35,287 nucleotides of DNA from a virus. The stretch spans positions 1-35,287 of IMG/VR virus record IMGVR_UViG_3300047668_001498; one strand, written 5' to 3'. Shown one piece after another: positions 3,634 to 24,818 of the stretch. Within the stretch, counting starts at the first letter, position 1. Each line of letters opens with the position of its first letter. The notes under the pieces were generated by a model. That model saw nothing but the letters and a program-made list of their open reading frames with translations. It was not told the DNA's origin and ran no database searches. A program made the position numbers and the translations under genes.

Positions 3634-3639
3634 ATCTTA

Positions 3640-3647
3640 TATAAATA
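3640..3647 (-). promoter_or_regulatory. Candidate late promoter element TATTTATA, very close to the start codon
   Basis: The coding strand reads CTATTTATATAAGATATGAAG, where ATG at 3633-3631 opens the 693-residue gene. The core ends 6 bases before the start codon, so if it is a promoter the message would be nearly leaderless. This is the closest spacing among the copies seen. Confidence 0.35.
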
Positions 3648-3667
3648 GAAAATTTACACGAGAAACA

Positions 3668-4978
3668 CTATTGCAATGCATTATAATTGTCTCCTCGCTT
3701 TGTTTTAATAGGAAAATACAGTGCTTCTTCAACATCTTGCAAAAATAATTCTCCATCATCTGGGTTATAATCAAATGTGAAGGAATCATATGTGTATAAA
3801 ATAAGTTTTGATTTATATTTATCCATAACATTAATTAGTTTATCTAAAATTTTACTGTTATATTCCGTTTCCAATGCCTGTAGAAAATAATTTAATAGTT
3901 TCGGTGGATTCATATCCACTAGGTTAGACGCATATAACTTTCTTTTATATAAATATGTAGAAATATACTTTTTATCCTTATATTCCTTCCATAATTTCTT
4001 GGTAAATATATCTATTTTATTAAAAAATTCAATACTTAGCATTTCCTTTGGAATACCACCATATAAAATTCTAAAGGATATTGTTTTAGCTTCTTTATAT
4101 TCAGCTTCGGTAAGTTCTTCTTTTCCAAAATATTGTTTTCCTAGATACATATGAATGGATCCATCTGGAAATTCATAGTCTATAACCTTAGCCATCATCC
4201 TTAAATGGTATGCATCAAAATCACATTCTACTATATCACCATTTCTAAATCTACTAATATATTTTTCACGTGTACCATCCTCTTTATTAAGAGCTGCGTA
4301 ATTTATACCTCCATATCTATTAGATGGTCTCCCTGTACTTGTATATAAATTGTATTGAGAATATTCATATCCTTGCATTGTAAATAATCCTGGTTCCTCA
4401 ATCTTATATAAATTATATAAAGTGTTGTTATTATATGTGTTATACGCTTGCCTATCTACCTTACCAAAATCATACTGTTTATACGCGATTTCCTTGAGTT
4501 TACGACACTTTTCCAAGTGTTTGAATATAGGAATAAGCGTGCCAATCTTTGGAAAATTGTAGTATTTACGTTCTATAAAATTATGTGCTGTTGTATTATT
4601 ATTTGATAATTCCAGTGGTATATTAGTATGAAACCAATTAGCTAAATTAAGATCTAATATTTTTTCACTTTCAACCTTATTCCATTTTAATATGTGTAAT
4701 AATTCCTTTTTATCAGGAGTAAGAATTTGTGTAAAATTTGATATTATCTTTCCAGCTTGTTCCATATCAAATGATGTTAATGCCTCAGAATGATTAATAG
4801 GTATAATAAATTCATGACCTTCATCCTTATCTATACCTAAATATAAATAAAATAAACATAGATCATTTTTAGCTGGGTGTTTGTATATATCAGAAAATAC
4901 TGGTATAATAAAAGCCGTTGAAAACTTTTTAGACATATTAAATAAACTAACAACACTTTGTGGAGTTTCTACAATCAT
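3668..4978 (-). CDS. Family A DNA polymerase-like protein, short, with altered active-site motifs
   Basis: 436 residues. Polymerase motifs appear in the right order: TSTGRPSNRYGGINYAAL at 213-230 (the T-x-TGR block), motif A CDFDAYHLR at 252-260, motif B KTISFRILYGG at 298-308, a LLNYFLQALETEYN helix at 361-374 and motif C YTYDSFTFDY at 395-404. Both catalytic aspartates are present (D253, D398). Against Taq/Pol I, the motif A glutamate is His (H258), the first motif B arginine looks like Tyr (Y294), and the HDE of motif C is YDS. The N-terminal 200 residues show no intact 3'-5' exonuclease acidic motif. T4-type phages normally replicate with a family B polymerase, so this may serve repair, gap filling or an unknown task. 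A weak AAAGG precedes the ATG. Confidence 0.8.
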   Translation of the reverse strand: MIVETPQSVVSLFNMSKKFSTAFIIPVFSDIYKHPAKNDLCLFYLYLGIDKDEGHEFIIPINHSEALTSFDMEQAGKIISNFTQILTPDKKELLHILKWNKVESEKILDLNLANWFHTNIPLELSNNNTTAHNFIERKYYNFPKIGTLIPIFKHLEKCRKLKEIAYKQYDFGKVDRQAYNTYNNNTLYNLYKIEEPGLFTMQGYEYSQYNLYTSTGRPSNRYGGINYAALNKEDGTREKYISRFRNGDIVECDFDAYHLRMMAKVIDYEFPDGSIHMYLGKQYFGKEELTEAEYKEAKTISFRILYGGIPKEMLSIEFFNKIDIFTKKLWKEYKDKKYISTYLYKRKLYASNLVDMNPPKLLNYFLQALETEYNSKILDKLINVMDKYKSKLILYTYDSFTFDYNPDDGELFLQDVEEALYFPIKTKRGDNYNALQ

Positions 4979-8116: not shown

Positions 8117-8449
8117 CTACTCCGGTTTTATATTATTAATTGTATCCATTTTTGATAAAATAGCGGATACATCTTTAGGTATTATTAATTGAGTACCGGG
8201 GGTTACAAAGAAGCTATCTCCTGATAAATTATTTGCAGTAGCTATTATCCACCATAATGTTCTATCATTATAGAATCTATAAGCTAAATTATCTAATCTA
8301 TCCGTTGAAGTAGAAATTATAATATTATCTGTTGTTTTCGTTGTAACCTTTGGTATTATTGTTGTTGTTTTAACTAGTTTATTAAAACGTGGATCTACCT
8401 GATCTATATTAGTAGCCCTTTTCTTTTTATTATATGAATATCTAGCCAT
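8117..8449 (-). CDS. LysM-like small baseplate protein (gp53 / tail protein X type)
   Basis: 110 residues. The C-terminal two thirds carry TSTDRLDNLAYRFYNDRTL, WWIIATANNL and FVTPGTQLIIP (about residues 47-92), the signature of LysM-like domains in phage baseplate proteins: a DRLD start, an aromatic pair WW, and a closing PGTQLxIP. In T4, gp53 is the wedge protein that carries this fold; in P2-type phages it is gpX. T4 gp53 is longer (196 residues), so this is a minimal version. A short Lys/Arg-rich N-terminal tail precedes it. The upstream stop and this start share one base (TAATG) with GGAG just upstream, so the two genes are translationally coupled. Confidence 0.8.
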   Translation of the reverse strand: MARYSYNKKKRATNIDQVDPRFNKLVKTTTIIPKVTTKTTDNIIISTSTDRLDNLAYRFYNDRTLWWIIATANNLSGDSFFVTPGTQLIIPKDVSAILSKMDTINNIKPE

Positions 8450-11400
8450 TATTCTTGCTCCAATTTAGCCATTTGTTCAAAGAAATCTTTATGTCCTGCA
8501 TCCATATCCTCTTCTGTACCAGGTCCTATATGGCGTCCTACAATATCTCCGAATGCTGTTGTTTTTGGTGAGGATCCAATTGGTGTAAATCCTAATTGAA
8601 TATTAAGATATTTAGGTAATTGAGCTACATCCTCCATTTCCTCAAGATTAATCTCCCAAGGTGTATTTTCATCTACTGATATATTTACACTAGATAAAAA
8701 TCCAGGACATCTGTATAAATAATCACCTAATGTTAATTTAATCATAGGACCTACCATTGTATCAGGTACAGCATTGGTTGTAGGATCTGCATAATGTGGA
8801 TAACAAAGTCCTATTAAATAATTTACCTTCTTATACATCATTAGTAATTCCTGTCTAGTCATACATACTACCATTAATCCAAATGATATAGCTCTTTCCG
8901 CTCCACCATATTGGTAAACCTTATCCGCCCTACCAATATATTTTTGATCCGACCAGTCAGGTGTTATGTTATCTGCAAAAGATGATATATATGACCTAAA
9001 TCGCAATTGCTTATCTGCAAATATATCTTCCATTACTAATTTAATCAAATCACGTTTATTTCCCTGCGTATCTATTGCAGTTGGCTTGCCCTCATCTCCG
9101 TTAAGCTTCCATAAATAATCATCCTGATTTAATGTTACTCTATAATCCGATCTATCTCTATCTGCTTTATAATCCTGAAAGCCAAATTTAGCAACTAAAC
9201 TATTTTTTTCGTAATCTGATACAGTTGCATCTCCAACTCCAGTAAATTTGGATCCTTTCTTTTCTAAATCGCCTCTAAAATCATTATGACTAGTTCCACC
9301 ATCAGCCATTTTTTTAGCATTTGCTGCCGTTATTCCATATGAACTTACAAGATAAGCTGCAATCTGTGGTCCTGCAAATTTACCTTCAGTATTTTCATAT
9401 TCTAAACCTTTACCATCTATATGATTTGTTTGATTTTCATATCTTCTAATGGTAGTACCACCTAGTCCATAAAAGGATTTAGGTCCACCAAAAACATCGT
9501 CTGATAATCTATCTATTTTTTGTCCTTTGATTCCTAAAAGGTTGGCTATTCCTAAAAATCCACCTGCTCCTAATGGATCGTCATTTAATATTAAATCATC
9601 TTTAAGAGCTATTAATGTATTACCAGCACCTTTACCCTTAGATACGGCTGAGCCAGCAGGTGTAGATTTATCATAGCCTGAGTTCAATACATTATGAGCG
9701 TCAACTGCAGCTTCATAATCAGAATTTCCTTCTCCTGCTCCTAATGGTATTAGACCATGTCGCTTAAATCTTATACCAAAATGGCCAGTGGCTATTGTCG
9801 CTAACATGTTTATAGGTAAAAATACTCTTGTTCTTCTACCAAGAAATGTCATGTCAGTCTCAACTCTTGGATTGGACGCTTGCAACCCTACCTGTTTCAA
9901 AAACCATAATGCACCTTTGATTGGATTGTCAATTAATGACTTACCTATCCTTATTACATCCATTAAACCACGGTTAGTTAGGGTCATGAATCCACCACGG
10001 AATGCACCTTCATCAAATGCCATTCCACCTAATCCCCAATTAGACCCTATATCTCTTAGGATATAAGGTTCTTTTGATTCCTTTAATCCATCTGGATCAT
10101 CACCATGTCCTCCAAACCTTAAATCATGGCCATATATTAATGATTTATTATAATCATATCCACCAACCTGATCTAATAATTCTTTTCTAGCATATCCTTC
10201 AATCTGAGAAGAAATTTCCCCATCCGCATAAGATAATTTATGTACGAAATAATTAGGATTACCTTCCACTGAATTAAATTTAGCCTTTGCATCTCCAAAG
10301 AATGGAATACGTGGTACTCCATCAGGCATACCTGAAGGCCCTGTCGTAGATGGAATTATCATTTCCATTTGACCAAGTATATCATCCCTCAATGTAGCCT
10401 CTGCTAAGAAACTTTTAGGGTGAGTATCATTAATAGTAATATCCGTTGTAAAATTATTAATTAAATCCCCATACTTATTACCTTCTATACCATTAAAATT
10501 AGGCCTTCCTGGATCGGTTGGAACAATTCCTTGAATACTAGCTGGTGAAGAGTTATATAGATTAAATGAAGGACCGAATCCTGAATTAATTACTATTGTT
10601 GGATTAATAGGTACTTGAGCTTCAATGTGTGATGTAAATATTCCTGAAGCATCCCTGAATAATCCATTATACATTAATCTGCCAGCCTGTACAGTATCAG
10701 GGTATGCGTATGTCATAGTTCCTGGAGAACCATTAATGCCTAAAAATTGTGTATCCGTTTGATTTAATGTAAATCCTGTTGATCCATATATATTATCGTC
10801 AAAATAATTGACGGGTGTTCCTATTGTTCCTAATCCCAGTCCGCTACTATCTGCATAAGTGAATTCCTGACCGGAGATTCCTTCATACTTACTTGGTTCT
10901 CCTGTATTAAATGCATTATCAAATTGGCCAATACGTGCGTTTGTAATGGTTTGGATTCCTGTTGTGGTATCTATTATGCTTGATTCATGCCTTCCATCTG
11001 GTGTTGTTAACGTATCATCAATACCGCTTGATTCATGTCTACCATCTGGTGTTGTTACACTAGAATCAATCCCACTTGATTCATGTCTACCTGATGGAGT
11101 TGTTGGACCATCATCAATACCACTAGATTCGTGTCTACCATCTGGTGTTGTAGGGCTACTATCTATACCACTTGATTCATGTCTACCGTCTGGTGTTGTT
11201 GGGCCATCATCAATACCGCTTGATTCATGTCTACCGTCTAGTGTTGTTGGACCATCATCAATACCGCTTGATTCATGTCTTCCTGATGGTGTTGTTACAC
11301 TGGAATCAATACCACTTGATTCATGTCTACCATCCAGTATTGAATTTACTGGTGATGTGTTACTAGCTTGATTATTTGCACCAAGTATTGAATTTACCGG

Positions 11401-12114
11401 GGCAGTATTGCTACTTTCATGTCTACCACCAGGTGTTGTTGGATTGCTATCTATACCAGATGATTCATGTCTTCCTGTTAAGGTTGAATTTAATGGTGCT
11501 GTATTACTAGCTTGATTATTTGCACCAAGAGTTGAATTAATAGGAGCGGTATTACTCGATAAATGTCTACCAGTTACTGGAGTTAGATTTTGTGCTTTTG
11601 TATTACTAGCTTGATTATTTGCTCCTAAAGTGGAGTTTAATGGTGCCGTATTACTAGCTTGATTATTTGCTCCTAAAGTAGAGTTTAATGGTGCTGTATT
11701 ACTAGATAAATGCCTACCTGTTACTGGTGTTAAATTTGTTCCAGCTGGTGTAGGTGCTTCATGTCTTCCAAGAACCGGAGATAAATTAGTTGCTGGTATA
11801 TCCGATTTTAGATTTGGGTTAAATTGGCTAACATTTAATGGAGCTATATCCGATTTTAGATTTGGATTGAATTGACTAACATTTAATGGTGCTATATCCG
11901 ATTTTAGATTTGGATTGAAATTGCTAACATCTAACGGAGATATATTACTTGAATTGTGTCTACCTGTAGGAAATGATATAGATGTTGCTGGTATATTACT
12001 TGAATTGTGTCTACCTGTAGGAAATGATATAGAAGTAGCAGATATATCACTAGAATTATGCCTTCCAGTTGGAAAGCTAATCTTCATTGGTTCTATTGGT
12101 ATTCTCTTTGCCAT
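8449..12114 (-). CDS. Large baseplate / tube-junction protein with an N-terminal 16-residue repeat array
   Basis: 1221 residues. Residues about 10-385 are an array of 16-residue units, many containing GRHxSS (16 GRH copies), with variants NPNLKSDI and GANNQASNT in the same phase. The C-terminal 250 residues look like the conserved phage domain with RSYISSFADNITPDWSDQKY, then IGRADKVYQYGGAERAISF, then FLSSVNISVDENTPWEI and LPKYLNIQLGFTPIG, which resembles tube-initiator or baseplate proteins next to the tape measure (the gp48/gp54 position in T4). A seventeenth GRH occurs near the C-terminus (VGRHIGPG). The middle is glycine-rich with no named domain. The gene starts 1 base after the tape measure stop, with AAGGG as ribosome binding site. 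Confidence 0.8.
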   Translation of the reverse strand: MAKRIPIEPMKISFPTGRHNSSDISATSISFPTGRHNSSNIPATSISFPTGRHNSSNISPLDVSNFNPNLKSDIAPLNVSQFNPNLKSDIAPLNVSQFNPNLKSDIPATNLSPVLGRHEAPTPAGTNLTPVTGRHLSSNTAPLNSTLGANNQASNTAPLNSTLGANNQASNTKAQNLTPVTGRHLSSNTAPINSTLGANNQASNTAPLNSTLTGRHESSGIDSNPTTPGGRHESSNTAPVNSILGANNQASNTSPVNSILDGRHESSGIDSSVTTPSGRHESSGIDDGPTTLDGRHESSGIDDGPTTPDGRHESSGIDSSPTTPDGRHESSGIDDGPTTPSGRHESSGIDSSVTTPDGRHESSGIDDTLTTPDGRHESSIIDTTTGIQTITNARIGQFDNAFNTGEPSKYEGISGQEFTYADSSGLGLGTIGTPVNYFDDNIYGSTGFTLNQTDTQFLGINGSPGTMTYAYPDTVQAGRLMYNGLFRDASGIFTSHIEAQVPINPTIVINSGFGPSFNLYNSSPASIQGIVPTDPGRPNFNGIEGNKYGDLINNFTTDITINDTHPKSFLAEATLRDDILGQMEMIIPSTTGPSGMPDGVPRIPFFGDAKAKFNSVEGNPNYFVHKLSYADGEISSQIEGYARKELLDQVGGYDYNKSLIYGHDLRFGGHGDDPDGLKESKEPYILRDIGSNWGLGGMAFDEGAFRGGFMTLTNRGLMDVIRIGKSLIDNPIKGALWFLKQVGLQASNPRVETDMTFLGRRTRVFLPINMLATIATGHFGIRFKRHGLIPLGAGEGNSDYEAAVDAHNVLNSGYDKSTPAGSAVSKGKGAGNTLIALKDDLILNDDPLGAGGFLGIANLLGIKGQKIDRLSDDVFGGPKSFYGLGGTTIRRYENQTNHIDGKGLEYENTEGKFAGPQIAAYLVSSYGITAANAKKMADGGTSHNDFRGDLEKKGSKFTGVGDATVSDYEKNSLVAKFGFQDYKADRDRSDYRVTLNQDDYLWKLNGDEGKPTAIDTQGNKRDLIKLVMEDIFADKQLRFRSYISSFADNITPDWSDQKYIGRADKVYQYGGAERAISFGLMVVCMTRQELLMMYKKVNYLIGLCYPHYADPTTNAVPDTMVGPMIKLTLGDYLYRCPGFLSSVNISVDENTPWEINLEEMEDVAQLPKYLNIQLGFTPIGSSPKTTAFGDIVGRHIGPGTEEDMDAGHKDFFEQMAKLEQE
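10965..12090 (-). repeat. In-frame 48-base tandem repeat array coding for the GRH repeats
   Basis: About 23 units of 48 bases (16 codons) lie end to end in the 5' part of the 1221-residue gene. The most regular ones lie at 10980-11340 and encode units of the type GRHESSGIDDGPTTPD. The older-looking units toward the start codon keep the period but vary in sequence (FPTGRHNSS, FNPNLKSDI, LGANNQASNT). Codon differences between copies show divergence at synonymous sites, so the array is not a recent single expansion. Confidence 0.9.
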
Positions 12115-12115
12115 A

Positions 12116-15100
12116 TTATGCCCTTACTGATGCAAGACCAACTGCTTTACCAACAGCGGCACCATCCATTTGTATTACTCTACCCCGAGCTACTAATTCA
12201 ATTAACATTTTATTTTGTTTAACTAATATTTCGATTGCATCGGCCATTCTATTAGAACTTCCATCATCATTTGATGATATAACCGATACAGGTGCGCTAT
12301 TATTCTCTGTATTTTGACCTAGATCCGTTCCAGCTATAATAGTGTCATTATTATTCATGGCAAAGGTTCCTTCATCTGCCATGATCATTCTACTGCCATA
12401 TCCAGATGGTGGATTTGTCCCTGGTAACATAAGGTCATTACCTCTATCTATACCATCCCATCCCTTATGGTCCATATGTAGGAAAGGAGAAGATGCTGAA
12501 ACAGAAACATCAAAGTTAAATGGATATTGCAGATATCCACTAATTACTTTATGGAGATTTGCAATTTTAGCACCCATTGTTTCAAAAGCAGCCAATATGC
12601 TAGTCCACATCTTTCCAGGCCATGCTTTTATTGATTCTCCAAAGGCTGAAAATTTTTCTTTTATCAATGTCCATCCTTTTGAGAACCACTCTTTAATAGC
12701 TGTTCCAATTCCTGAAAACCAGTCACCGATGCCTCCTAAGTAATCTCCCATTTTTTCAGTAAACGACATATTAGCATATTCAAGTTCCGCTAATTTATTC
12801 TCCTCAAATTTCATTATTTTATCTTGAATTTTTTTTGAATTCCTGAAATCTTTCATTTTCTGGTCAACATCCTGTTTGCTTAATGTTTTATCTTTCATTA
12901 TCCTTTCTTCCTCTTGTTTCATAAGGTCGCTTTCAAATGAAGCAGACATACTTGCTAGATCAGCTTGTACTTGCATCTGTCCTACCATATCAGTGGTACT
13001 ATTTGTAATGAAGTCACCCATTCCATCTAATGGATCACTAGCTCTAAATGTAGTATCTCCAAAATCTTCCATAGCTCGTGCCATGTAGGCGTTTTGCTCA
13101 TCTACATCAGTAATACCAGTCTTATCAAATAATTGTGCAAAGTATTGATCTTTAGCGCCTGAATTTGCAGCAAAGAAATCCGCCATAGAAGCTTTAGATT
13201 TACCTGTTGATTTTGCAAAATCAGTCATTTGCTGTGCCATTAGATCAGAACTCATACCCAATCCACCTAACATTGCTTCCTCGTCATCACCCCACATACT
13301 TCTATTTGCAGCAATTCCATCTTGAAGGAATGCATCAGCTTTAGCTGCTTCTGATTGTAATCTTTCTGCTCCCGTTCTTTCCTGTATAGCTGCTTGTAAA
13401 TCAACATTTGTTTGTATCAGAGCCTGTTCTATACCTTCTAATCTAGCCAATTCCTCTGTATTGCCTCTTGCTGCAAATTTTAACGCCGTCATTGTCTGGT
13501 CAGTCTGTGAGGTAGACATAGCTAATTTATCCGCTTGTTCTTGGGCCATTCTAGAAGCTGCATCTACATCATTTTCAAATATTTCCAAGGTTCCTCCCCA
13601 CCTACCTGCTGCATATCCAACTAATGCCCCAATACCTGCACCTAATAATGTACCTACGATTGGCACTACTGATCCAATTGCAGCTCCTGCTAATGCACCT
13701 GTTGCCGCACCTGAGGCACCTGTTACTGCCTGGGTTTTCTTAATTCCTGATGTTGCGGTTCCAGCATCATTTAGATCCTTTGCAGACATATAAGCTGCAG
13801 CTCCTAAACCTAACGCTCCCCCTACTACACCAGCTCCACCTAAAGCAGTTCCTCCTAAAGATGCAGCATTAGCTGATCCACCTGCCATCATTGTACCTAA
13901 TTGACCAATTCGGCCTCCTTTTATCATTCTACTTGCGGCCTTTCCACTTCCCTTTAATCCACCTTTCTGAAAAGCTTTTAATAATCTACCAAATCCCTTT
14001 GCTTTTCCTTTACCTCCACCGAAATTTCCACCAGATGAATCCGTTACATGCATTGGATTCATACTCGTTCCTTTTGAGAACATTCCACCAGCTCCTGAAA
14101 ATAAATCACCTATCTTTCCTGGAAATAGTCCTTTAATTAAAGGGCCAAATAATCCTATCACCTTTTTAGCTGCAAAGCCAGCCATTATAGTATTTACAAA
14201 TCCTTTAGTAGCACTTCCTCCACCTACCATTCTTAGTGCACTTTTAATAAAATCACCAATACCAGAGTTATTAAAAAAAGCAATAGCTGCTTTTACTCCG
14301 TCTATTATTGTAGTAATTATTGTTTTTACGGTTTCTAGGAAATGTGTTAATCCAACCTCAAATTGATCGGAGTTTATAAATTTCATAAATCCTTTTTCAA
14401 GATCTTTAATATCACCACCAAACACCTTAAGGAATATATCTCCAATACGATTAGCAATCTTTTCCATTACAGACAAACCTGTCTCTAATTGACCCATTAC
14501 CTTAACCTGTTGATCTAATAATTTAGCGTCCTTTCCCTTTCTCTTCTGAGCTTCATCTTCCTGGCCTTTTTTCATTTCACCACCTTTAAGCATCTTCTCC
14601 ATTTCTCCAAGTTCTAAACCTGCAGCTTTGGCCATTGCTTCTTTTTGGAAGATATTCATTTTATTAAATTCTGATATACCACCCATTTGCTTAAGAACCT
14701 CCTGAGAAGCTCCAAGTGCATCTCCAGACATAGCCATTTCCCTAGCTTTCTGAAGATTTATATTTTTACCAGTTAGTAATTGTGCTTCCATTTCGGCTTC
14801 AATTGAACTTTCAAAGTCTAATAACCCCTTTGCTACCTTAGCCATATCATCCATTGATATACCCATACGTCTAGCTTCAATTGCTGCGTTTCTTACATTG
14901 TCAGCTGTACCACCAAACATTGTTCTTGTTTCAGTAGATGCATTAGCTATATCTTGAAATACTAATGCTGGATTTAATCCATACATATCAGACATAGCAT
15001 AGGTTGATTGAATCATGTTTGCTGCAGTATCTTCTGAGAATCCTGTCATGAGCATCATGTTGTCCATTACCTTAGCAGAATCTTCCGCACTTAATCCTAA

Positions 15101-16246
15101 TCCTAATCTTAACTTAACAGCTGAATCTACTAGCTTTTCGGATACATTATATACACTACCTAATTTATCAGATAATGCGGCTGTTACCTCTGCTGCTCCT
15201 TCTAATGAGGATGCAAATCCTTCACCAGATTTTCTAAATCTAGATTGCATTTGCTTAGCTAATTCTAAATTCCTTTCCTGATATACACCACCACCTGCTA
15301 ATGATTTATTTACCCTATCTTGTTCCTCAGCTAATTGCACTGCTCTTTGACGCATCGTTTCATATCGCTTCAATCCTACAGCTAATAATCCAGTCATAAG
15401 GGTTAAAGGATTTGTTACAATACTTTTAAGAGTAGAGAATATTTGACCAGCTGCTCCTGTCTGATTCTCCATTGTATTTAGTATATCTTTAGATAATTGT
15501 TTACGACGCTCCTCCATCTTTTCGGCCTTAGAAGCTGCTTCTAAGCCCTTCTGTGCGAGTTGTAGCTTTGCTACATCCTCTACGTTACCTGCTGCCTTGG
15601 CTATTGCAATTTCATTTGCTAAATTTCTTAACTCACTCTCATATGGAACAGTCTCAGTTGCAAATCCTAATATTTCCTTCATTCTATTACTTCTAGATTT
15701 CATGCTAGCAGCAACATTTTGCTGAATCTTCTGAACACTATCTATAGTATCTGAAACCCCTTCTAATTCTACTCTTCTTGCCTTAGTAAGGTTACCCATT
15801 AATTCTTCTTGTATCATCATTTTGGAAGAAAACTGTACACCTATTTGCAACTTCTTTGCCATATCATTATATACAGCTGGTCTGCCTGCTTCTTGCTTAA
15901 AAAATTCTTTTTCGGAGTCTTGTATCTTTTTACGTATGGTTTGTTCATCACCTAACGACTTTACCTGATCTCGTTTTAGGGTAGTATTTCTTTGTGTAAG
16001 TTCATTGGCCCTGGCTCTCTCTGCATTTGCCTCTTCTTCTACTCGCAATATCTCTGTTTGAATTTTTGCTAGTTTGTCGATATTGGTTTCAGCTTGAGCA
16101 GCTGTTCGTAAGTCAGCCAATGAGGCTTCAAGTATTTGGGCTTGGTATTCGGAATTTTTTTGTAATATCTTTCCACGCTCAACATATATCTGGTTGAGTT
16201 GTTCTTCACTTCTTATAAATTCTTTTGGATCTATTTTTCTAGCCAT
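12116..16246 (-). CDS. Tail tape measure protein (gp29 position), 1376 residues
   Basis: This is the longest helical protein of the tail module and lies downstream of tube and chaperone genes, the standard place for the tape measure, which sets tail length. The first 130 residues are charged heptad-like coiled coil. Hydrophobic stretches occur near 270-300 (NPLTLMTGLLAVGL) and in glycine/alanine-rich parts near 780-880 (GVVGGALGLGAAAYM, TGALAGAAIGSVVPIVG), typical of tape measures that insert into host membranes. The last 120 residues are Gly/Asn/Asp-rich. T4 gp29 has 590 residues, so this tail should be roughly twice as long. A GGAG lies before the ATG and overlaps the preceding gene's stop region. 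No lysozyme or peptidase motif was noticed. Confidence 0.85.
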   Translation of the reverse strand: MARKIDPKEFIRSEEQLNQIYVERGKILQKNSEYQAQILEASLADLRTAAQAETNIDKLAKIQTEILRVEEEANAERARANELTQRNTTLKRDQVKSLGDEQTIRKKIQDSEKEFFKQEAGRPAVYNDMAKKLQIGVQFSSKMMIQEELMGNLTKARRVELEGVSDTIDSVQKIQQNVAASMKSRSNRMKEILGFATETVPYESELRNLANEIAIAKAAGNVEDVAKLQLAQKGLEAASKAEKMEERRKQLSKDILNTMENQTGAAGQIFSTLKSIVTNPLTLMTGLLAVGLKRYETMRQRAVQLAEEQDRVNKSLAGGGVYQERNLELAKQMQSRFRKSGEGFASSLEGAAEVTAALSDKLGSVYNVSEKLVDSAVKLRLGLGLSAEDSAKVMDNMMLMTGFSEDTAANMIQSTYAMSDMYGLNPALVFQDIANASTETRTMFGGTADNVRNAAIEARRMGISMDDMAKVAKGLLDFESSIEAEMEAQLLTGKNINLQKAREMAMSGDALGASQEVLKQMGGISEFNKMNIFQKEAMAKAAGLELGEMEKMLKGGEMKKGQEDEAQKRKGKDAKLLDQQVKVMGQLETGLSVMEKIANRIGDIFLKVFGGDIKDLEKGFMKFINSDQFEVGLTHFLETVKTIITTIIDGVKAAIAFFNNSGIGDFIKSALRMVGGGSATKGFVNTIMAGFAAKKVIGLFGPLIKGLFPGKIGDLFSGAGGMFSKGTSMNPMHVTDSSGGNFGGGKGKAKGFGRLLKAFQKGGLKGSGKAASRMIKGGRIGQLGTMMAGGSANAASLGGTALGGAGVVGGALGLGAAAYMSAKDLNDAGTATSGIKKTQAVTGASGAATGALAGAAIGSVVPIVGTLLGAGIGALVGYAAGRWGGTLEIFENDVDAASRMAQEQADKLAMSTSQTDQTMTALKFAARGNTEELARLEGIEQALIQTNVDLQAAIQERTGAERLQSEAAKADAFLQDGIAANRSMWGDDEEAMLGGLGMSSDLMAQQMTDFAKSTGKSKASMADFFAANSGAKDQYFAQLFDKTGITDVDEQNAYMARAMEDFGDTTFRASDPLDGMGDFITNSTTDMVGQMQVQADLASMSASFESDLMKQEEERIMKDKTLSKQDVDQKMKDFRNSKKIQDKIMKFEENKLAELEYANMSFTEKMGDYLGGIGDWFSGIGTAIKEWFSKGWTLIKEKFSAFGESIKAWPGKMWTSILAAFETMGAKIANLHKVISGYLQYPFNFDVSVSASSPFLHMDHKGWDGIDRGNDLMLPGTNPPSGYGSRMIMADEGTFAMNNNDTIIAGTDLGQNTENNSAPVSVISSNDDGSSNRMADAIEILVKQNKMLIELVARGRVIQMDGAAVGKAVGLASVRA

Positions 16247-16260
16247 GAACTTTTACTCCA

Positions 16261-16527
16261 CTACTTTTTGGATTTATTACCTATAACATACCAATCATAT
16301 ATTTTTGACCATTTATCATAATGGGTAGCAAATTCGGGACTTTCCTTTCTACGGGCTTGAACTGCGGTTTCTAAATCCTTAGTAGCTTTTTCGAATTCTT
16401 TAGTATATCTTTTTAATTTAGCATCGCCTTGCATTGCCGCATAAAACTTACCTCGCTTATGAACTGTTTTTAATAATCCATATAACTTACTAAGTATACC
16501 CTCATTCATTTTTGGTGTTCTTGCCAT
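16261..16527 (-). CDS. Small basic helical protein between chaperone and tape measure genes
   Basis: 88 residues, lysine-rich and predicted to be mostly helical, with no motif I recognise. It ends 14 bases before the tape measure ATG and has a good ribosome binding site (GGGAGAAT). The position between tail assembly chaperone and tape measure genes suggests a tail assembly or tail-tip role, but this rests on context only. A TATTTATA motif lies 36 bases upstream of its start, so it and the tape measure gene may also be read from their own promoter. Confidence 0.75.
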   Translation of the reverse strand: MARTPKMNEGILSKLYGLLKTVHKRGKFYAAMQGDAKLKRYTKEFEKATKDLETAVQARRKESPEFATHYDKWSKIYDWYVIGNKSKK

Positions 16528-16589: not shown

Positions 16590-16901
16590 CTATGAATTTA
16601 CCCCTGGAGGTCTGTGAACTTTAGGTCTTGTATTTCCGGATTCCTTGCCTGAATTAGCTTCGTTTTGTCGCTTTACAGCTAGGTTGACCTGGTGTAAGTA
16701 AAATTTACGTAAATATAAAGGCATATCATATACATCCGCATGAGTAAAGCCTTTACCATAGTAGCAAAGTGTAAATATATCCTCGTGAATTACAGGTCTA
16801 TGACTTGGTGTTAGGCCAAAAAAACCCGCTGTCGATTGGTAAATCGACAACCTCATCATGCGCACATTGATCACATTCAAATCTAAATTGCATTGAAACA
16901 T
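16590..16901 (-). CDS. Frameshift extension of the gp26-type protein (tail assembly chaperone second part)
   Basis: An open frame of 103 codons overlaps the 3' end of the gp26-type gene by 104 bases. Its first 26 residues are only the other-frame reading of that gene and have no ribosome binding site in front of the available ATGs, so independent translation from the first ATG is unlikely. The part beyond the overlap is protein-like, with PVIHEDIFTLCYYGKGF and YDMPLYLRKFYLHQVNLAVK. It lies +1 (or -2) relative to the gp26-type frame, and the two frames meet at a run of seven T. A shift there would join 267 residues of gp26-type protein to about 75 residues of this one. The arrangement tube, chaperone, shifted extension, tape measure matches lambda G/GT-type tail assembly genes. 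Confidence 0.7.
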   Translation of the reverse strand: MFQCNLDLNVINVRMMRLSIYQSTAGFFGLTPSHRPVIHEDIFTLCYYGKGFTHADVYDMPLYLRKFYLHQVNLAVKRQNEANSGKESGNTRPKVHRPPGVNS

Positions 16902-17619
16902 CAGGACCTGAGGCCTTAATTGTTTTACGCAGATCTAATGAATCTCTTGCCATCAGTTCATTCTCTATGAAATCCCTAATAGCTTTAGTATCTCTATTAC
17001 CATCTATAGCTATAATTTGATGTTTTAATCTTGTAGTAAGTTCTTGACCTGGTCCATTCTTAGATGCGAATTTTGCAATTCCTTTAAGCTCAGCCTCCAT
17101 AGCCTTGTCCTTACGACCTGTCATAAGTTGATAAGTAATTACTTTCTTAGAAACTGGTAATGTGAATTCAAATTCATTTATTCCTTTTTCAAATTCAGTA
17201 AAATCTACTTCTTTATGTGGTAATTGTGCAAGGTCAATTATTAATTCATTCTTTTCACCACAATCTGGACATTTAATTCCAACCTCATAGTCTTTACCAT
17301 AACCTAAGACTCTAGCTGCAACCATAATTGCATTCTTGTCGCCTGTGATTATATCGTCATAGTTACATGGAGTAACAATTAATGATTTTAATAATTTATC
17401 TAATACTACACCCTTCTTAATAAGATTAGCAGAGGTAAGGATATCCTCATCTCTTGCCGTCATATATCTCATCTCTATCTGACCAGAAGCTAAAGGATGG
17501 TCTTTTGCATAAAACCATCCTTCGCTTGGTAAGTCAACGAGTTCCGTTGGGTATTTTGAATTGATCTGAGGGGCTACCTCAGGTTGTGCGCTGTTTGTAG
17601 ACTTATTTTCGTCTGCCAT
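16798..17619 (-). CDS. gp26-type baseplate/tail assembly protein with a zinc ribbon
   Basis: 273 residues. The front part reads YPTELVDLPSEGWFY (23-37), then SGQIEMRYMTARDEDILTS, LIKKGVVLDKLLKSLIV and NAIMVAARVLGYGKDYEV, which is the conserved core of the T4 base plate family (PF12322, T4 gp26). Two CxxC pairs, C117/C120 (KCPDCG) and C249/C252 (CDQC), probably bind one zinc ion. In T4, gp26 takes part in baseplate hub assembly. Here the gene lies between tube and tape measure and runs into a second frame at its 3' end, which is how tail assembly chaperone genes are built. The ribosome binding site AGGAGAAT is strong. The unshifted product ends FFWPNTKS. Confidence 0.8.
   Translation of the reverse strand: MADENKSTNSAQPEVAPQINSKYPTELVDLPSEGWFYAKDHPLASGQIEMRYMTARDEDILTSANLIKKGVVLDKLLKSLIVTPCNYDDIITGDKNAIMVAARVLGYGKDYEVGIKCPDCGEKNELIIDLAQLPHKEVDFTEFEKGINEFEFTLPVSKKVITYQLMTGRKDKAMEAELKGIAKFASKNGPGQELTTRLKHQIIAIDGNRDTKAIRDFIENELMARDSLDLRKTIKASGPDVSMQFRFECDQCAHDEVVDLPIDSGFFWPNTKS
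16818..16824 (-). promoter_or_regulatory. Probable slippery heptamer for programmed frameshifting (seven T)
   Basis: On the coding strand the gp26-type frame reads GGG TTT TTT TGG CCT, and the downstream frame reads GGT TTT TTT GGC CTA. The P-site phenylalanine tRNA can move +1 or -2 inside the T run and keep full pairing. The unshifted stop (TAG at 16800-16798) follows 18 bases after the run. Confidence 0.6.
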
Positions 17620-17663: not shown

Positions 17664-18155
17664 TTAGTACTGTAGTATTGCGTAATCGTACTTAAGGGTA
17701 AGACCCATAGTTACGAATGCTTCACCACTTGACCAATCTAAATCACCTGCTGCTGTAGATAAGATAAATGCACCTTTAAGTGTCCATTCCTCTACCTTAT
17801 CACCTACAGGGCCTAATACATTAAATGTAATATCCTTCTTGTAGAAATCTGCATATCCATCACGACCAGTAACTGATTCATGAGATAGTCTAACCCATTC
17901 CATTACAGCTTGTGCTGCTGATGGTACTACTGGATCATATAGTTCTATTGTTACGTCTTGCCAGTCACCTTTTCCTTTAAGTTTCCTTTTGACGTTAATG
18001 TGATCAAGTACTACCTCACCAAATGTTATTGATGGTCTTGAAGTTTTCTTAATTAAATATGCAGGAATACCATCTATATACATGATAAACCTGTTTTGCA
18101 TTTTTGGTTCAAATGCGGTAAACATTGCTTCTGTTGGGTCGATTAATTGTGCCAT
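17664..18155 (-). CDS. 19: Tail tube protein gp19
   Basis: 163 residues, the same length as T4 gp19. The protein has the features of the tube family: an N-terminal AFEPKMQNRFIMYIDGIPAY, the middle block GEVVLDHINVKRKLKGKG with WQDVTIELYDPVVPS, and the C-terminal GAFILSTAAGDLDWSSGEA followed by VTMGLTLKYDYAIL, which is the strand pair that closes the hexameric ring. It polymerises inside the sheath. The gene follows the second sheath gene by about 74 bases and has a strong ribosome binding site (GAGGAGAAC) and a TATTTATA motif in the gap. Tube subunits are needed in large amounts, which fits a separate promoter. Confidence 0.95.
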   Translation of the reverse strand: MAQLIDPTEAMFTAFEPKMQNRFIMYIDGIPAYLIKKTSRPSITFGEVVLDHINVKRKLKGKGDWQDVTIELYDPVVPSAAQAVMEWVRLSHESVTGRDGYADFYKKDITFNVLGPVGDKVEEWTLKGAFILSTAAGDLDWSSGEAFVTMGLTLKYDYAILQY

Positions 18156-18229: not shown

Positions 18230-21200
18230 TTATTCAGGGAATACTGCTCCTGTTGGTAATATGTTAAAGTCTAATATAATAAATTCTGCTGCCTTAGCTG
18301 GTTGTAAGAATATCTCACCGATCATTTGATTTCTATCAATTACATCGGCAGTATTATTCGATTCATCCATTATAACCTTAAAGGCGTAAATACCTTGTCT
18401 TTGTTGAACACTTTCAAAGTATGGATTAGCTATGTTTAAGAATCTATTTCTAGTAGCTGTTGTGTTATTTTCAAATACTAAATATTTAGTTGCGGATGCA
18501 ATAAATTTCTTAGCTGCGATTAGTAATCTTCTTACATTAATTCTATCAAGTGCTGATGGTCTAGCTTGTAACGTCTTCTGACCCCATATTGATATACCTT
18601 CCTTAAATGTTGCAATAGGATTTACTCTTCCTTCATATAAATCATCACGTTCAGCATGAGTTAATCTTGATTCCACTTCGAGGGCTGATGTTAACATTCC
18701 TCTATTGAAACCTGCTGGTGCGAACCATTCATATGCTACATTATCATTATGAGATATAACTCCACCTGCTACTACTGATGGCGGAACCCATACTGGTTTA
18801 TTAATATCACTATCCATTATCTTAACCCATGGCCAATAAGTAGCTGTATAGTTGGAATCGAATGATTTTACTACATTAGTTACTGTAGACATTCCTAAAC
18901 CTTCCATTGAAGCTTGTTTTCCTATTGAATCCATTATATAGAATGCATCTGCTCTATCTTCCGCTACATTCTTAGCGTATGTAGTAACAGGTGCGTGATC
19001 TTTCATATTAGGACCTGGAGTAATAATCATGTTAATATCTATTTCATCAGGATTAGATATTGCATTTAATGCTCTTTTATAAGCAAGTGCTCCATCTTTT
19101 TCCATTGTTGATAAATCATACCCTTGCATGTTAGTTGATGTTATATCAGATCCTCTTGCTATGTATCTAGCAGGATTCAATCCATCAAAACCACCTTGGA
19201 AAGGTATCATAAATTTCTTAGTTTGAAGATTTATCGTAGTTCCTGTTGGTGTAATAGCATCACCATCTCCTGAATCTAATGAAGCTGAAGGGTGTTGGAA
19301 GCAATTAGCTAAATTAAATGCTTTATTGTTTCCTGCTGCAGCTGCTAATCCTCCTGCAGGAGCACTATCAGGTAAAGGCATTAAATAATTAAGATTATCT
19401 GAATCTGAATAATCAAATCCGTAGAATACTCTCTTATTATATACATTATCTAATACTTGTGATCCTTTCTTAGCTAGGTTTTTACCTACCATATCATTAT
19501 AAGTTCCAAGATGTCCTTCGCCGTTACCAATAACCGATGCACTTGGTAAACTACCATGTGTTGCATTTAATGGTTCAAGAACGGTTGCATATCCAAATGG
19601 TACTAATTCTGCTGATGTACCTTTATCTTTTACATCCTCAGGTAATTCTACCCATACGAATGAAGATAAGTTAGGATAATCACCATACATAGTTACCTTA
19701 CCATCTGCATCTATTTCCTGGTATCTATCACCAATCACTCTACCTATAAAGTTTGGATTATCTGGATCTAATGTTAAATTATTCCATTGTTCTACTATAT
19801 GTGGTCTTCTATCAGAGTCACCTGATTTTTTCCATGGAGATTGAACTGCATGTACTGAACCATCGAGATCTACTCTTCTTAATTGAACTGAGAATGTACC
19901 ATATTCAGATCCTGCTACTGTTCCTGCACCCTTTACATTAAGTATACCAACTTTAACTTGGTAACTCATTGCTGGTCCATGAGCTCTAGTATGAAATTTG
20001 AATAATTGTGTTGTTTTTCCACCAACTTTTTGTGAAGTAATCCATGGTGTTCTTGCTTCATACCCATCCTTTACACTATATCCATAAGCAATATCATTTT
20101 GAATTGATTTTACTTTAACCTGTGCTGCATTATCAGATGAATACGATGCTGATGCATAATTCTTAAACCACATGTAAGTATATACTGGCTTATATCTATC
20201 TTTTGGAGACATTCCAAATACTTTAGTTAGGTGATTTGAACTATTAGGATTAACTGATGCTGAATAAGCAGTTGCTGTAGTATGAATATTACCATTATCT
20301 GCATGTCCTGTATCAAAGTTAGTATTATTTGTATAAGTTGCACCTAAACTTCCTCCAGCTGAACCAGAGAAATAAAGTACAAATGATTCCGCATCAGATC
20401 CACCCTGTTGTGTAGTTTGTATAGATGCAGTTAAAGATTGTGCGTCTGCTGACCATCTAGGAGCTCCTACTGTTCCACGTCCTGCTACAGATTGAGAATA
20501 CGCAGCATCTGCTGATCTACCTGTTAGGCTGTTTTGTATAGTAAGTGATCCACTACCAGATCCTAATGTAGCTGAAAATATTTGTTCACTATTTTGTGTT
20601 ACTGAATTAATTGCATCCTTAGTTATACGTGCAAATGTTCCTGACATATAAGATCCAGAAGCAAAATATGTTTTAGTACTGTGTGTTCCTGCAACAATAG
20701 TATTACGTCCACTTGATTGTGATACATAAGCACTATTACCTGCTCCACCGTAAGATGCTGAAGTAAGGAATAAGTGTATATTAGATGCTGAAGCTATGTG
20801 AGAACCTGTTGTAGCATGAATATATTTACCTAAGTCCCAATCTGCTCCTACATGGAATCCATAATGAGAAGCTGCATCATCTGCATCTAAATTAGGTTGA
20901 TCACAGTTAATCATTTTAACTAATGATTGTGCCTGATTAAATGCATTAGTTCCTGCCTGGAATGAACCTACTCTAGATCCTGGTGAATCTGCTGCAGGAT
21001 CCGCTGATCCTAATACTGTATATGTTAAATCAGTTCCACCTGTTACTCCTCCTGGAATAAAGATTACTGCTTTATGAGTTGCTGTAGTAGTAGTTGTAAG
21101 AACTATACCTCTACCTACTGCCATTGCATCACCAAGTACGTCATTACCAATAGATGAAGATAAGAATGCTGTTCCATGTGCTCTATCAGCTGGACTGGTT

Positions 21201-22087
21201 ACATCGCCATTTCCAACTAATGGATCATTAGGTCTTTTCATTGAAGTTGCTACTAATTCATCTGTTCCATGGGTATATCCATGTCTAAAAGTTTTTTGAT
21301 ATAAAGATGATGTTACCACACCACTATCTAATATAACATTAAGATCAACTGCATGCACGTGATCAAAATATGTAGATACTGTTCTAATAGCTCCATCATA
21401 CTCTACTCTTACAGGTTGAGCTGCTTGTAATGAAGCTGAGAACCAGAAGAAGTGTGATTCACTTTCCTGATCTTCTCCTCCTGTATATCCTGTTGTAGAT
21501 ATATCAGAGTCTTGTGAGTTATATGAAGAATTAAGTACAAAGTAACTTCCACTAAATGATCCAGAGAAGTTAGAACCACCAATAGGGAAATTTTTACCAG
21601 CTTCAGTATCTTTAATAAATTGTGTAATTTGATTGGCCTTATCTGTAGATCCGGTCATAATAAATTTAGTAATTTCTTCTGTACCATCACCCAATTTAGG
21701 TGTAAAGTAAGCATCACTATCTACATGTGTTGGGTGATATACAGCTACAACGTTATTACCGCCGGCTAATGTAGTATCACTTGATCCACTCATTACTAAT
21801 TCTACTAAATATGGTGAATACCCACTTAGACCTACAACTCTTACAATTGTTACACGTCCCGCGCTTTTCATATATTGTTCAACTGCGTATGGAACATAAC
21901 TGTCCTGTGTCTTAGGTCCAAACACTTTCTCAAACTCACTGAATGATTCTATTACAGTTGGTTCAAATGCTGGGCCTTTGATTGTTGGTCCTATAATTGC
22001 GGCTCCTATTGACGAAATACCTGCTGGTAAAAATGATAAATCACGTTCATTGGTAAATACGCCTGGGCTAACTATTTTTTCTGCCAT
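18230..22087 (-). CDS. 18: Tail sheath protein gp18, enlarged paralogue (1285 residues)
   Basis: The first 90 residues (MAEKIVSPGVFTNERDLSFL onward) and the last 230 closely match the neighbouring sheath gene and resemble T4 gp18: IWGQKTLQARPSALDRINVR, KYLVFENNTTATRNRFLNI, VIMDESNNT and a C-terminal ILDFNILPTGAVFPE. The central region differs. About 390 residues beyond the 899-residue paralogue are inserted between residues about 100 and 560, rich in Ser, Gly, Thr and Ala (for example SNFSGSFSGSYFVLNSS), with blocks like FNQAQSLVKMINCDQPN that resemble beta-rich phage decoration domains. T4 gp18 has 659 residues. The insert probably faces outward on the sheath surface. GAGGAGTT is the ribosome binding site. 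Confidence 0.93.
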   Translation of the reverse strand: MAEKIVSPGVFTNERDLSFLPAGISSIGAAIIGPTIKGPAFEPTVIESFSEFEKVFGPKTQDSYVPYAVEQYMKSAGRVTIVRVVGLSGYSPYLVELVMSGSSDTTLAGGNNVVAVYHPTHVDSDAYFTPKLGDGTEEITKFIMTGSTDKANQITQFIKDTEAGKNFPIGGSNFSGSFSGSYFVLNSSYNSQDSDISTTGYTGGEDQESESHFFWFSASLQAAQPVRVEYDGAIRTVSTYFDHVHAVDLNVILDSGVVTSSLYQKTFRHGYTHGTDELVATSMKRPNDPLVGNGDVTSPADRAHGTAFLSSSIGNDVLGDAMAVGRGIVLTTTTTATHKAVIFIPGGVTGGTDLTYTVLGSADPAADSPGSRVGSFQAGTNAFNQAQSLVKMINCDQPNLDADDAASHYGFHVGADWDLGKYIHATTGSHIASASNIHLFLTSASYGGAGNSAYVSQSSGRNTIVAGTHSTKTYFASGSYMSGTFARITKDAINSVTQNSEQIFSATLGSGSGSLTIQNSLTGRSADAAYSQSVAGRGTVGAPRWSADAQSLTASIQTTQQGGSDAESFVLYFSGSAGGSLGATYTNNTNFDTGHADNGNIHTTATAYSASVNPNSSNHLTKVFGMSPKDRYKPVYTYMWFKNYASASYSSDNAAQVKVKSIQNDIAYGYSVKDGYEARTPWITSQKVGGKTTQLFKFHTRAHGPAMSYQVKVGILNVKGAGTVAGSEYGTFSVQLRRVDLDGSVHAVQSPWKKSGDSDRRPHIVEQWNNLTLDPDNPNFIGRVIGDRYQEIDADGKVTMYGDYPNLSSFVWVELPEDVKDKGTSAELVPFGYATVLEPLNATHGSLPSASVIGNGEGHLGTYNDMVGKNLAKKGSQVLDNVYNKRVFYGFDYSDSDNLNYLMPLPDSAPAGGLAAAAGNNKAFNLANCFQHPSASLDSGDGDAITPTGTTINLQTKKFMIPFQGGFDGLNPARYIARGSDITSTNMQGYDLSTMEKDGALAYKRALNAISNPDEIDINMIITPGPNMKDHAPVTTYAKNVAEDRADAFYIMDSIGKQASMEGLGMSTVTNVVKSFDSNYTATYWPWVKIMDSDINKPVWVPPSVVAGGVISHNDNVAYEWFAPAGFNRGMLTSALEVESRLTHAERDDLYEGRVNPIATFKEGISIWGQKTLQARPSALDRINVRRLLIAAKKFIASATKYLVFENNTTATRNRFLNIANPYFESVQQRQGIYAFKVIMDESNNTADVIDRNQMIGEIFLQPAKAAEFIILDFNILPTGAVFPE

Positions 22088-22118: not shown

Positions 22119-24818
22119 TTATTCTGGAAAGGCTGCGCCTGTTGGTAAAATGTTAAAGTCTAATATAATGAATTCAGCTGCCTTAGCAGGTTGTAAAAAT
22201 AATTCACCGATCATTTGATTTCTATCAATTACATCAGGAGTATTATTAGATTCATCCATTATAACCTTGAACGCATACAAGCCTTGTCTTTGCTGAATTG
22301 ATTCTAAATAAGGATTAACTATATTTAGAAATCTATTTCTAGTTGCTGTTGTGTTATTTTCAAATACTAAATATTTAGTTGCTGAAGCGATAAATTTCTT
22401 AACAGCAATTAATAATCTTCTTACATTAACTCTATCCAATGCAGATGGTTTAGCTTGAAGCGTTTTCTGTCCCCAGATACATACACCTTGACCAGGGAAT
22501 GTAGCAATAGGATTTACTCTACCTTCATATAAATCATCTCTTTCATCATGAGTTAATCTACTTTTAACCTCAATTACTTCAGTAAGAGTACCTCTGTTTA
22601 GTCCTGCCGGAGCAAACCATTCAAAAGCTACCTTATCATTATAAGCAATTGCTCCAGGAACTACCACTGATGGTGGAACCCATACTGGCTTATTAATATC
22701 AGTATCTAGGATTTTAACCCATGGATAATAACAAGCTGTATAATTAGAATCAAATGCTTTAATTGTATCTGTTACTGTTGTAATATTATCACCGTATGAA
22801 GCTGCATCCATTACATAGAATGCATCTCCTCTATCTTCACATGTATTCTTAGCATGTGTAGTAATTCCAGAATGTAATCTATGATCTGCACCCGGAGTTG
22901 CCATCATATTGATATCATACTCATCTGGATTAGATACTGCGTTAACAGCTCTTTTATATGCTAGTGTACCATCCTTCTGTGCAGTAGAACAGTCGAAGCC
23001 AAATAAATTAGCTGCTGATATATCTCCTGCTAGTCCAACGAATCTTGAAGGATTAAATCCATCAAAACCACCTTGGAATGGTATTGCAAACTTTTTAGTA
23101 GCTAAATTAATTGCTGAACCACCTGGCGTAATGTTTTCACCTCTTGGTGTTCCTCCTCCATCTAATGATGCAGATGGATGTTGCCAACAATCACTTAAAT
23201 TAAATGCTGCATTATTTCCTGCAGTTGTGCTTTCTTTTGGTAAAGGTGATAAATAATTTAAGTTATCTACATTTGTAAAATCAAATCCGTAGAATACCGC
23301 TTTATTATAAACACCATCCATAATTTGTTTTTTATTTCTTTCTTCATTACCATTTTCAGATTCACCATATACACCTATCGTAGATGCTGATGGACAACCT
23401 TTGAATGTTGAAGGAACTGGTTCTAATAATGCTGCATATCCAAATGGTACTAATTCTGCAGATACACCTTGATCTTTAACTTCCTCAGGAATTTCTAACC
23501 AAATGTAATTTGACTTATTAGCATAATCCCCATATACCGTTACCTTTCCTGCTGCATCAATAGCTTGATATCTATCACCAACTACTCTACCTAGGAAATT
23601 TGGGTTATTAGGATCTAATGTTAAATTATTAAATTGTTCAACTACCTCAGGAGCTCTATCTGAATCGTTAGATTTTTTATATGGGGTTCTGTTAGCTAAT
23701 ATAGATCCATCTACCTTCACTCTTCTTAGTTGTAAGGAGAATGAACCATATTCTGATCCTGCAACTGAACCAGCTGCTCTTACATTTAATATACATGCTT
23801 TGATTTCATGATTTACCGAACTACCATGGGCTCTTGTATGTATCTTAAATAAATTTACTGTTTTTCCACCAACCTTTTGTGATGTTATAAATGGTGTTCT
23901 TGCTTCATATCCGTTCTTAGTAGCATATACATGTTTGTAACTTATTTCAGTAGATGTATTACCTGAATCCATATTACCATTATATAATCCACCACCTACT
24001 ATCACAGAAGGAACTGTTTTAGCCCCAACTGTTGTATGTGCAGCGAAAGATGCAGAAGCTGCATTCTTAAACCAATATTTCAAATAAACAGGCTTATATC
24101 TATCCTTTGGTGTTGTACCAAATACCTTATCAATTAAAAATTCACTTGATGGATCTAATGATGCAGAATAAGCTGTATCATCTGTCTTAGATGTAGCTGC
24201 ATGATTTGGTGAAGTACCAGCTGATTTTACTGCATGTCCTGTTGTAAAGTTCGTTGTAGAACCATAAGGTATTGCATTACCATCACTATCTTGTTCTGTC
24301 GGATGACTTGAAGCACTTAGAAATAATAAGAATCCACTTGCGTCTCCAAAATCTTGTCTTCTAACTACATTATCTTCAGCACCATCACCATTTACACCGG
24401 CTTTAGTATTGGATGCAGATAGAGCATACCATTTTGCAGTTGGATCAACTTGACCAGGAGCTAATACAGCTACTGTTCTTCCACCTGCATCAGGAGAAGC
24501 ATCAAGTCTATAACTACCAGAAACTGCTATATCAATAGCTTGTTCTAAATATCCTGATAATCCTAAAATTCTTACTATTGTTACTCTTCCCGCACTCTTC
24601 AAATACTGTTCAACCGTATAAGGAACGTAAGACTCTTTGGTTTTAGGACCAAAGACTGCTTCAAATTCCTTAAATGATTCAATAATTGTAGGTTCAAATG
24701 CAGGTCCTTTGACTGTAGGTCCTATTATTGCAGCTCCAATTTCTCCAATTGATGCTGGTAAAAAAGATAAGTCTCTCTCGTTCGTAAAGACACCAGGACT
24801 AACTATTTTTTCTGCCAT
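22119..24818 (-). CDS. 18: Tail sheath protein gp18, first paralogue (899 residues)
   Basis: The protein opens like its neighbour (SPGVFTNERDLSFLPASIGE) and shares the C-terminal sheath core with T4 gp18: CIWGQKTLQAKPSALDRVNV, LVFENNTTATRNRFLNIVNP, MDESNNTPDVIDRNQMIGEL and PAKAAEFIILDFN. The central part (after residue about 100) carries the block DKVFGTTPKDRYKPVY, ARTPFITSQKVGGKT and LTLDPNNPNFLGRVVGDRYQ, also present in the paralogue. It is about 240 residues longer than T4 gp18. The two genes are separated by only 31 bases. The ribosome binding site is AGAGGAGTT. Which paralogue forms the bulk of the sheath cannot be read from the sequence. The near-identical ends with divergent middles point to tandem duplication followed by divergence or domain gain. 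Confidence 0.95.
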   Translation of the reverse strand: MAEKIVSPGVFTNERDLSFLPASIGEIGAAIIGPTVKGPAFEPTIIESFKEFEAVFGPKTKESYVPYTVEQYLKSAGRVTIVRILGLSGYLEQAIDIAVSGSYRLDASPDAGGRTVAVLAPGQVDPTAKWYALSASNTKAGVNGDGAEDNVVRRQDFGDASGFLLFLSASSHPTEQDSDGNAIPYGSTTNFTTGHAVKSAGTSPNHAATSKTDDTAYSASLDPSSEFLIDKVFGTTPKDRYKPVYLKYWFKNAASASFAAHTTVGAKTVPSVIVGGGLYNGNMDSGNTSTEISYKHVYATKNGYEARTPFITSQKVGGKTVNLFKIHTRAHGSSVNHEIKACILNVRAAGSVAGSEYGSFSLQLRRVKVDGSILANRTPYKKSNDSDRAPEVVEQFNNLTLDPNNPNFLGRVVGDRYQAIDAAGKVTVYGDYANKSNYIWLEIPEEVKDQGVSAELVPFGYAALLEPVPSTFKGCPSASTIGVYGESENGNEERNKKQIMDGVYNKAVFYGFDFTNVDNLNYLSPLPKESTTAGNNAAFNLSDCWQHPSASLDGGGTPRGENITPGGSAINLATKKFAIPFQGGFDGFNPSRFVGLAGDISAANLFGFDCSTAQKDGTLAYKRAVNAVSNPDEYDINMMATPGADHRLHSGITTHAKNTCEDRGDAFYVMDAASYGDNITTVTDTIKAFDSNYTACYYPWVKILDTDINKPVWVPPSVVVPGAIAYNDKVAFEWFAPAGLNRGTLTEVIEVKSRLTHDERDDLYEGRVNPIATFPGQGVCIWGQKTLQAKPSALDRVNVRRLLIAVKKFIASATKYLVFENNTTATRNRFLNIVNPYLESIQQRQGLYAFKVIMDESNNTPDVIDRNQMIGELFLQPAKAAEFIILDFNILPTGAAFPE

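Follow-up and report, generated by a model that had tools for sequence, protein, structure and literature searches.

The window, the whole 35,287-nucleotide stretch of viral DNA analyzed here, carries on its minus strand a tail tube gene (17664–18155; phrog_4542 6.5e-27, PF06841 1.2e-6) upstream of a gp26-type gene (16798–17619). The latter has an AGGAG-type ribosome binding site (ACAACATAGGAGAATAAGTT ahead of the ATG) and encodes a TAC-N-like protein of 273 aa, which matched PF12322 T4_baseplate (2.8e-13; 50.5 bits against a Pfam cut-off of 24.5) and phrog_150, baseplate hub (2.6e-16). A sequence search gave no solved relative. A second ORF (16590–16901) lies in the +1 frame relative to the gp26-type ORF, which is also its −2 frame. 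The junction reads GAC AGC GGG TTT TTT TGG CCT AAC ACC AAG TCA TAG and contains the putative shift site GGG TTT TTT TGG (16816–16827, with the T-run at 16818–16824), of the form UUU_U, the A-site codon being UGG. Reading in +1 from TTT TTT T into GGC gives FF-GLTPSHRPVIHEDIF..., and the 75 codons after the T-run (GLTPSHR...GVNS) with their stop make up an extension (16590–16817), a predicted three-helix C domain that may resemble the tail of gp51.

The tape measure gene (12116–16246, 1376 aa) was assigned from a weak match to phrog_167, tape measure (5.7e-5), its size and its position. Between it and the extension is an ORF of 88 aa (16261–16527) with its own ribosome binding site, for which Pfam and PHROG profile comparison gave no family match. 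The order tube, gp26-type gene, extension, tape measure, likened in an earlier note on this DNA to that of lambda G/GT, is present in the window and in four phages, immuto, Mel-JY01, SP-15 and LIS04. Elsewhere, the window holds two tandem tail sheath genes (18230–22087, 1285 aa, and 22119–24818, 899 aa) with similar ends and differing central regions, and a gene for a 1221-aa protein (8449–12114) with many GRHESSGID-type repeats at its start and no Pfam match.

Related loci were taken from annotated phages and from viral and prokaryote genome contigs. A tblastn search of phages with only the extension as query gave no match, so extension homologues were sought by position and with an extension profile. 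A homologue was detectable downstream in 285 of the 295 loci with a gp26-type ORF, lying in the +1 frame in 277, in the −1 frame in eight and in the same frame in none. The earlier note had proposed to check whether relatives keep the T-run and the frame relation but not the start of the extension, and this is what was found. Seven of the ten loci without a profile match are contig ends. Two more are the Streptomyces phages GiJojo and BRock, which have a related open +1 frame at TTT CGC, and the last is L003, in which an endonuclease ORF at the junction separates the gp26-type gene from the extension. This ORF (2943–3557 of L003) is a GIY-YIG homing endonuclease gene (PF01541, 2.5e-6) placed exactly between shift site and extension; the L003 extension has its own ATG (3578–3874), and Rfam gave no intron there. 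Clustering at 60% identity left 59 clusters (50 in +1, seven in −1 and two unscored). The +1 frame stayed open for at least 55 codons past the stop of the gp26-type gene in 263 of 272 testable loci (97%). Among the 697 other ORFs on the same contigs with a length of 150 aa or more, 29 (4%) had such an open frame, so the extension is far beyond chance. The public annotations examined do not show a frameshift signal.

Shift-site statistics were drawn from 214 distinct +1 sites. Most read TTT TTT TGG (145), followed by TTT CTT TGG (34), CTT TTT TGG (14), TTT TTT TAC (8) and rarer forms, and all but one (213) have UUU_Y as their core; in the remaining one, L005, a TTT TGA T lies further downstream. 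The first Phe codon is TTT in 197 and TTC in three, compared with 1742:500 elsewhere in the genes. UUU_Ynn is reported to be especially prone to +1 shifting in bacteria, and CUU_U to be the most efficient +1 site (PMC5009743). No upstream Shine–Dalgarno (SD)-like stimulator was found (motifs in 9% vs. 8% and 1% in control stretches), and there was little RNA structure downstream of the site (mean z −0.3 to −0.8). A classic −1 heptamer (X XXY YYZ) was ruled out for the window, as the extension lies in the +1/−2 frame and a G precedes the T-run.

Downstream of the site, 84 non-overlapping pairs of loci gave 869 synonymous and 569 non-synonymous codon changes in the extension frame, against 162:1300 and 135:1324 in the other two frames, and the changes fell 447/268/1131 on extension-frame codon positions 1/2/3. 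Upstream, most changes were at position 3 of frame 0. The coding frame therefore switches from frame 0 to +1 at the site, and purifying selection acts in the extension frame from there onward.

We conclude that the locus is very probably a +1 programmed frameshift producing a short and a long tail assembly chaperone, as lambda G/GT does, which supports the frameshift that the earlier note proposed at the seven T. The same fused protein, with one extra Phe, could be made by a −2 shift at U7 of the kind used by phage Mu (PMC5009743), and the earlier note had left +1 and −2 side by side. Since the two frames are identical and the U7 of the window (TTT TTT T) allows complete Phe re-pairing in both directions, both are possible there. 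The relatives favor +1, because UUU_Y is present at 213 of the 214 sites whereas no more than 172 would let Phe re-pair after a −2 slip, sites of the forms TTT CTT T, TTT CTA T and TTC TTT being unable to re-pair two bases back. A Mu-type −2 shift was rejected as the mechanism of the whole family on this count, and we consider it unlikely also at the U7 of the window, where the shift is probably +1.

Three other accounts do without a ribosomal shift. It is very improbable that translation of the extension begins at a start of its own, as in an independent small gene, even though the extension is annotated in this way in Mel-JY01, GiJojo and BRock, an ATG is present in L003 after the endonuclease insertion, and the window ORF has start codons upstream of the run. 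In 69 of the 214 sites, a third, the extension frame contains no ATG, GTG or TTG as far as 45 nt beyond the site; SD-like motifs precede any extension-frame start in only 35, and start positions are not conserved. In the window, SD-like sites stand before most structural genes and not before the extension ORF, whose lack of a ribosome binding site the earlier note had remarked. Conservation of the T-run beyond its amino acids would also have no reason in a separate gene. Seven T in AT-rich DNA make a plausible run for RNA polymerase slippage, which would yield a mixed mRNA population, and a homopolymer in a metagenomic contig might be a sequencing or assembly error in one continuous gene. However, the T-run never exceeds three in 41 of the 214 sites, with the frame relation unchanged, which argues against both transcription slippage and read error. 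Polymerase slippage is highly unlikely also because a T closes the preceding codon in no more than 3 of the 214 sites, so longer runs are avoided. Error is refuted by the relatives: in-frame fusions number 0 of 285, eight loci use −1, and hundreds of relatives, among them sequenced isolates and contigs assembled independently, keep the frame relation, as does a record identical to the window (L001).

Under the +1 reading, most ribosomes would read the gp26-type frame to the TAG and release the 273-aa short form. A presumed fraction would slip +1 at UUU UUU UGG, with tRNA-Phe on UUU before a pyrimidine, and continue in the +1 frame to give a long form of 342 aa (...DSGFF-GLTPSHR...). If the two forms work as lambda gpG and gpGT do, the tape measure protein may be coated by the N domain and the tail tube subunit recruited by the helical C domain of 75 residues that only the long form, the minor product, would have; both forms may leave before the virion is complete. 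The lambda proteins are likewise encoded between the tube and tape measure genes, as a short form and a frameshifted long form with a helical tail. Lambda shifts −1, at G GGA AAG, whereas the shift proposed here is +1, and the likeness rests on position and product pair, not on sequence.

The chaperone gene of phage Mu reaches the same relative frame as the window extension, but by a −2 shift (PMC5009743), and +1 fits the family of the window better. In direction and kind of gene the locus resembles the +1 chaperone frameshifts of the SPO1-like phage Moonbeam (PMC4299906) and of HSTV-2 (PMC5009743). The RF2 gene (prfB), with CUU_UGA, and UUU_Y +1 sites share the P-site slip chemistry proposed for this family, which also shows RF2-like traits in the CTT that replaces TTT at many sites and in the TTT TGA T of L005. 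Unlike RF2, most sites of this family have UGG rather than a stop codon in the A site, and no SD-like stimulator was found. The earlier note had also suggested that the gp26-type protein, as a zinc-ribbon protein, would act as the chaperone. The chaperone part of this is supported, but the zinc ribbon does not define the family, its two CxxC pairs being both absent from 182 of the 214 distinct relatives and both present in 31.

The N domain and the extension were modeled apart. The N-domain model (pLDDT 86) was aligned to 399 solved chains, among which the best alignment was to YqbN (3klu; Z 5.7, 81 residues, 3.3 A), which we take to be a tail assembly chaperone from its place in a defective prophage. 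The HK97 tail assembly chaperone was second (2ob9; Z 4.8, 93 residues, 3.9 A) and 5ir0 third (Z 4.5), with the next, unrelated chains at 3.3. These Z values are modest, and values below 8 can reflect a common arrangement; Foldseek alone gave an E of about 4 for 2ob9. The modeled alignments to YqbN and the HK97 chaperone thus support a chaperone fold but do not prove it. The extension model (pLDDT 81) has three helices (10–24, 30–34 and 38–65 of a 79-residue segment) and no convincing match among solved structures; a phage Moogle "tape measure chaperone" at rank 17 among viral models (E 1.6) was not used. The third-ranked chain, 5ir0, is the uncharacterized ORF19 protein from a PICI-like element of Vibrio cholerae; a chaperone-like fold in such a satellite protein might serve to interfere with phage tails.

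T4 gp26 and gp51, listed as hub assembly chaperones (PMC3004832), belong to the same domain family as the window gene, both matching PF12322 (8.8e-64 and 3.9e-52, respectively). In T4 they are two separate, divergently transcribed genes, whereas the window has one gene and a frameshift. As gp51 is a gp26 paralog with a C-terminal tail, extending about 48 residues past the PF12322 domain, gp26 would correspond to the short form and gp51 to the long one. The alignment of the fused family with gp51 is collinear and continues through the tail, but it is weak (hhalign E 0.0014, with a probability of 18%), as is the match of the extension HMM to gp51. T4 seems to encode the same short/long pair as separate genes 26 and 51. 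PMC10885494, citing Vladimirov et al. 2022 on the tail assembly chaperones of T4-like phages, describes these phages as carrying one short gene and another that is long and fused.

The base before the T-run differs between +1 and −1 loci. Two-fold pyrimidine codons just before the site end in C in 93 cases and in T in three, while such codons followed by T elsewhere have a C:T ratio of 626:1940 (Fisher's exact test, 8.5e-51, uncorrected for relatedness; as the loci are related, p-values overstate their independence). A T stands before the first Phe codon in 8/8 of the −1 loci, compared with 3/214 of the +1 loci, and a T at this place would make U UUU UUU, a −1 heptamer. Three of the −1 loci (L097, L113 and L128) fall inside a +1 clade of the N-domain tree, and the other five, with T TTT TTC or T TTT TTT, are jumbo or giant phages. 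On this tree the frame label needs three changes, at least two of them forced by supported branches. The number of direction changes is rough, given the long branches of the jumbo phages and a bootstrap that had not converged.

From these results, a broader reading, on which our confidence is evenly divided, is that the gp26/gp51 chaperone family mainly uses a +1 UUU_Y frameshift, that on two or more occasions its direction has changed to −1, the base preceding the first Phe codon acting as the switch, and that T4 genes 26 and 51 are the same pair split. Frameshifting in tail chaperone genes was already known, with examples of both +1 and −2, and members of the gp26 family had already been proposed to be chaperones. 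What looks new is that this family conserves a +1 signal and that the signal has switched to −1: a literature search, with Vladimirov et al. 2022 outside its scope, found no report of either. If the reading of the locus holds, a long form of the chaperone has gone unannotated in hundreds of myophages, environmental and cultured, and a frameshift counterpart is available for T4 gp26/gp51, a pair whose part in tail assembly has long been obscure. The signal occurs naturally in this family in a +1 and a −1 version that differ by few bases, which makes the choice of shift direction directly testable, and the +1 UUU_Y sites, among the largest natural sets of their kind, could be used for training frameshift predictors. 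More generally, G or C is preferred as the third base of the codon that precedes the T-run, A being depleted there as well (GAG 9 : GAA 2, CAG 6 : CAA 1), a pattern that the avoidance of −1 slips does not explain.
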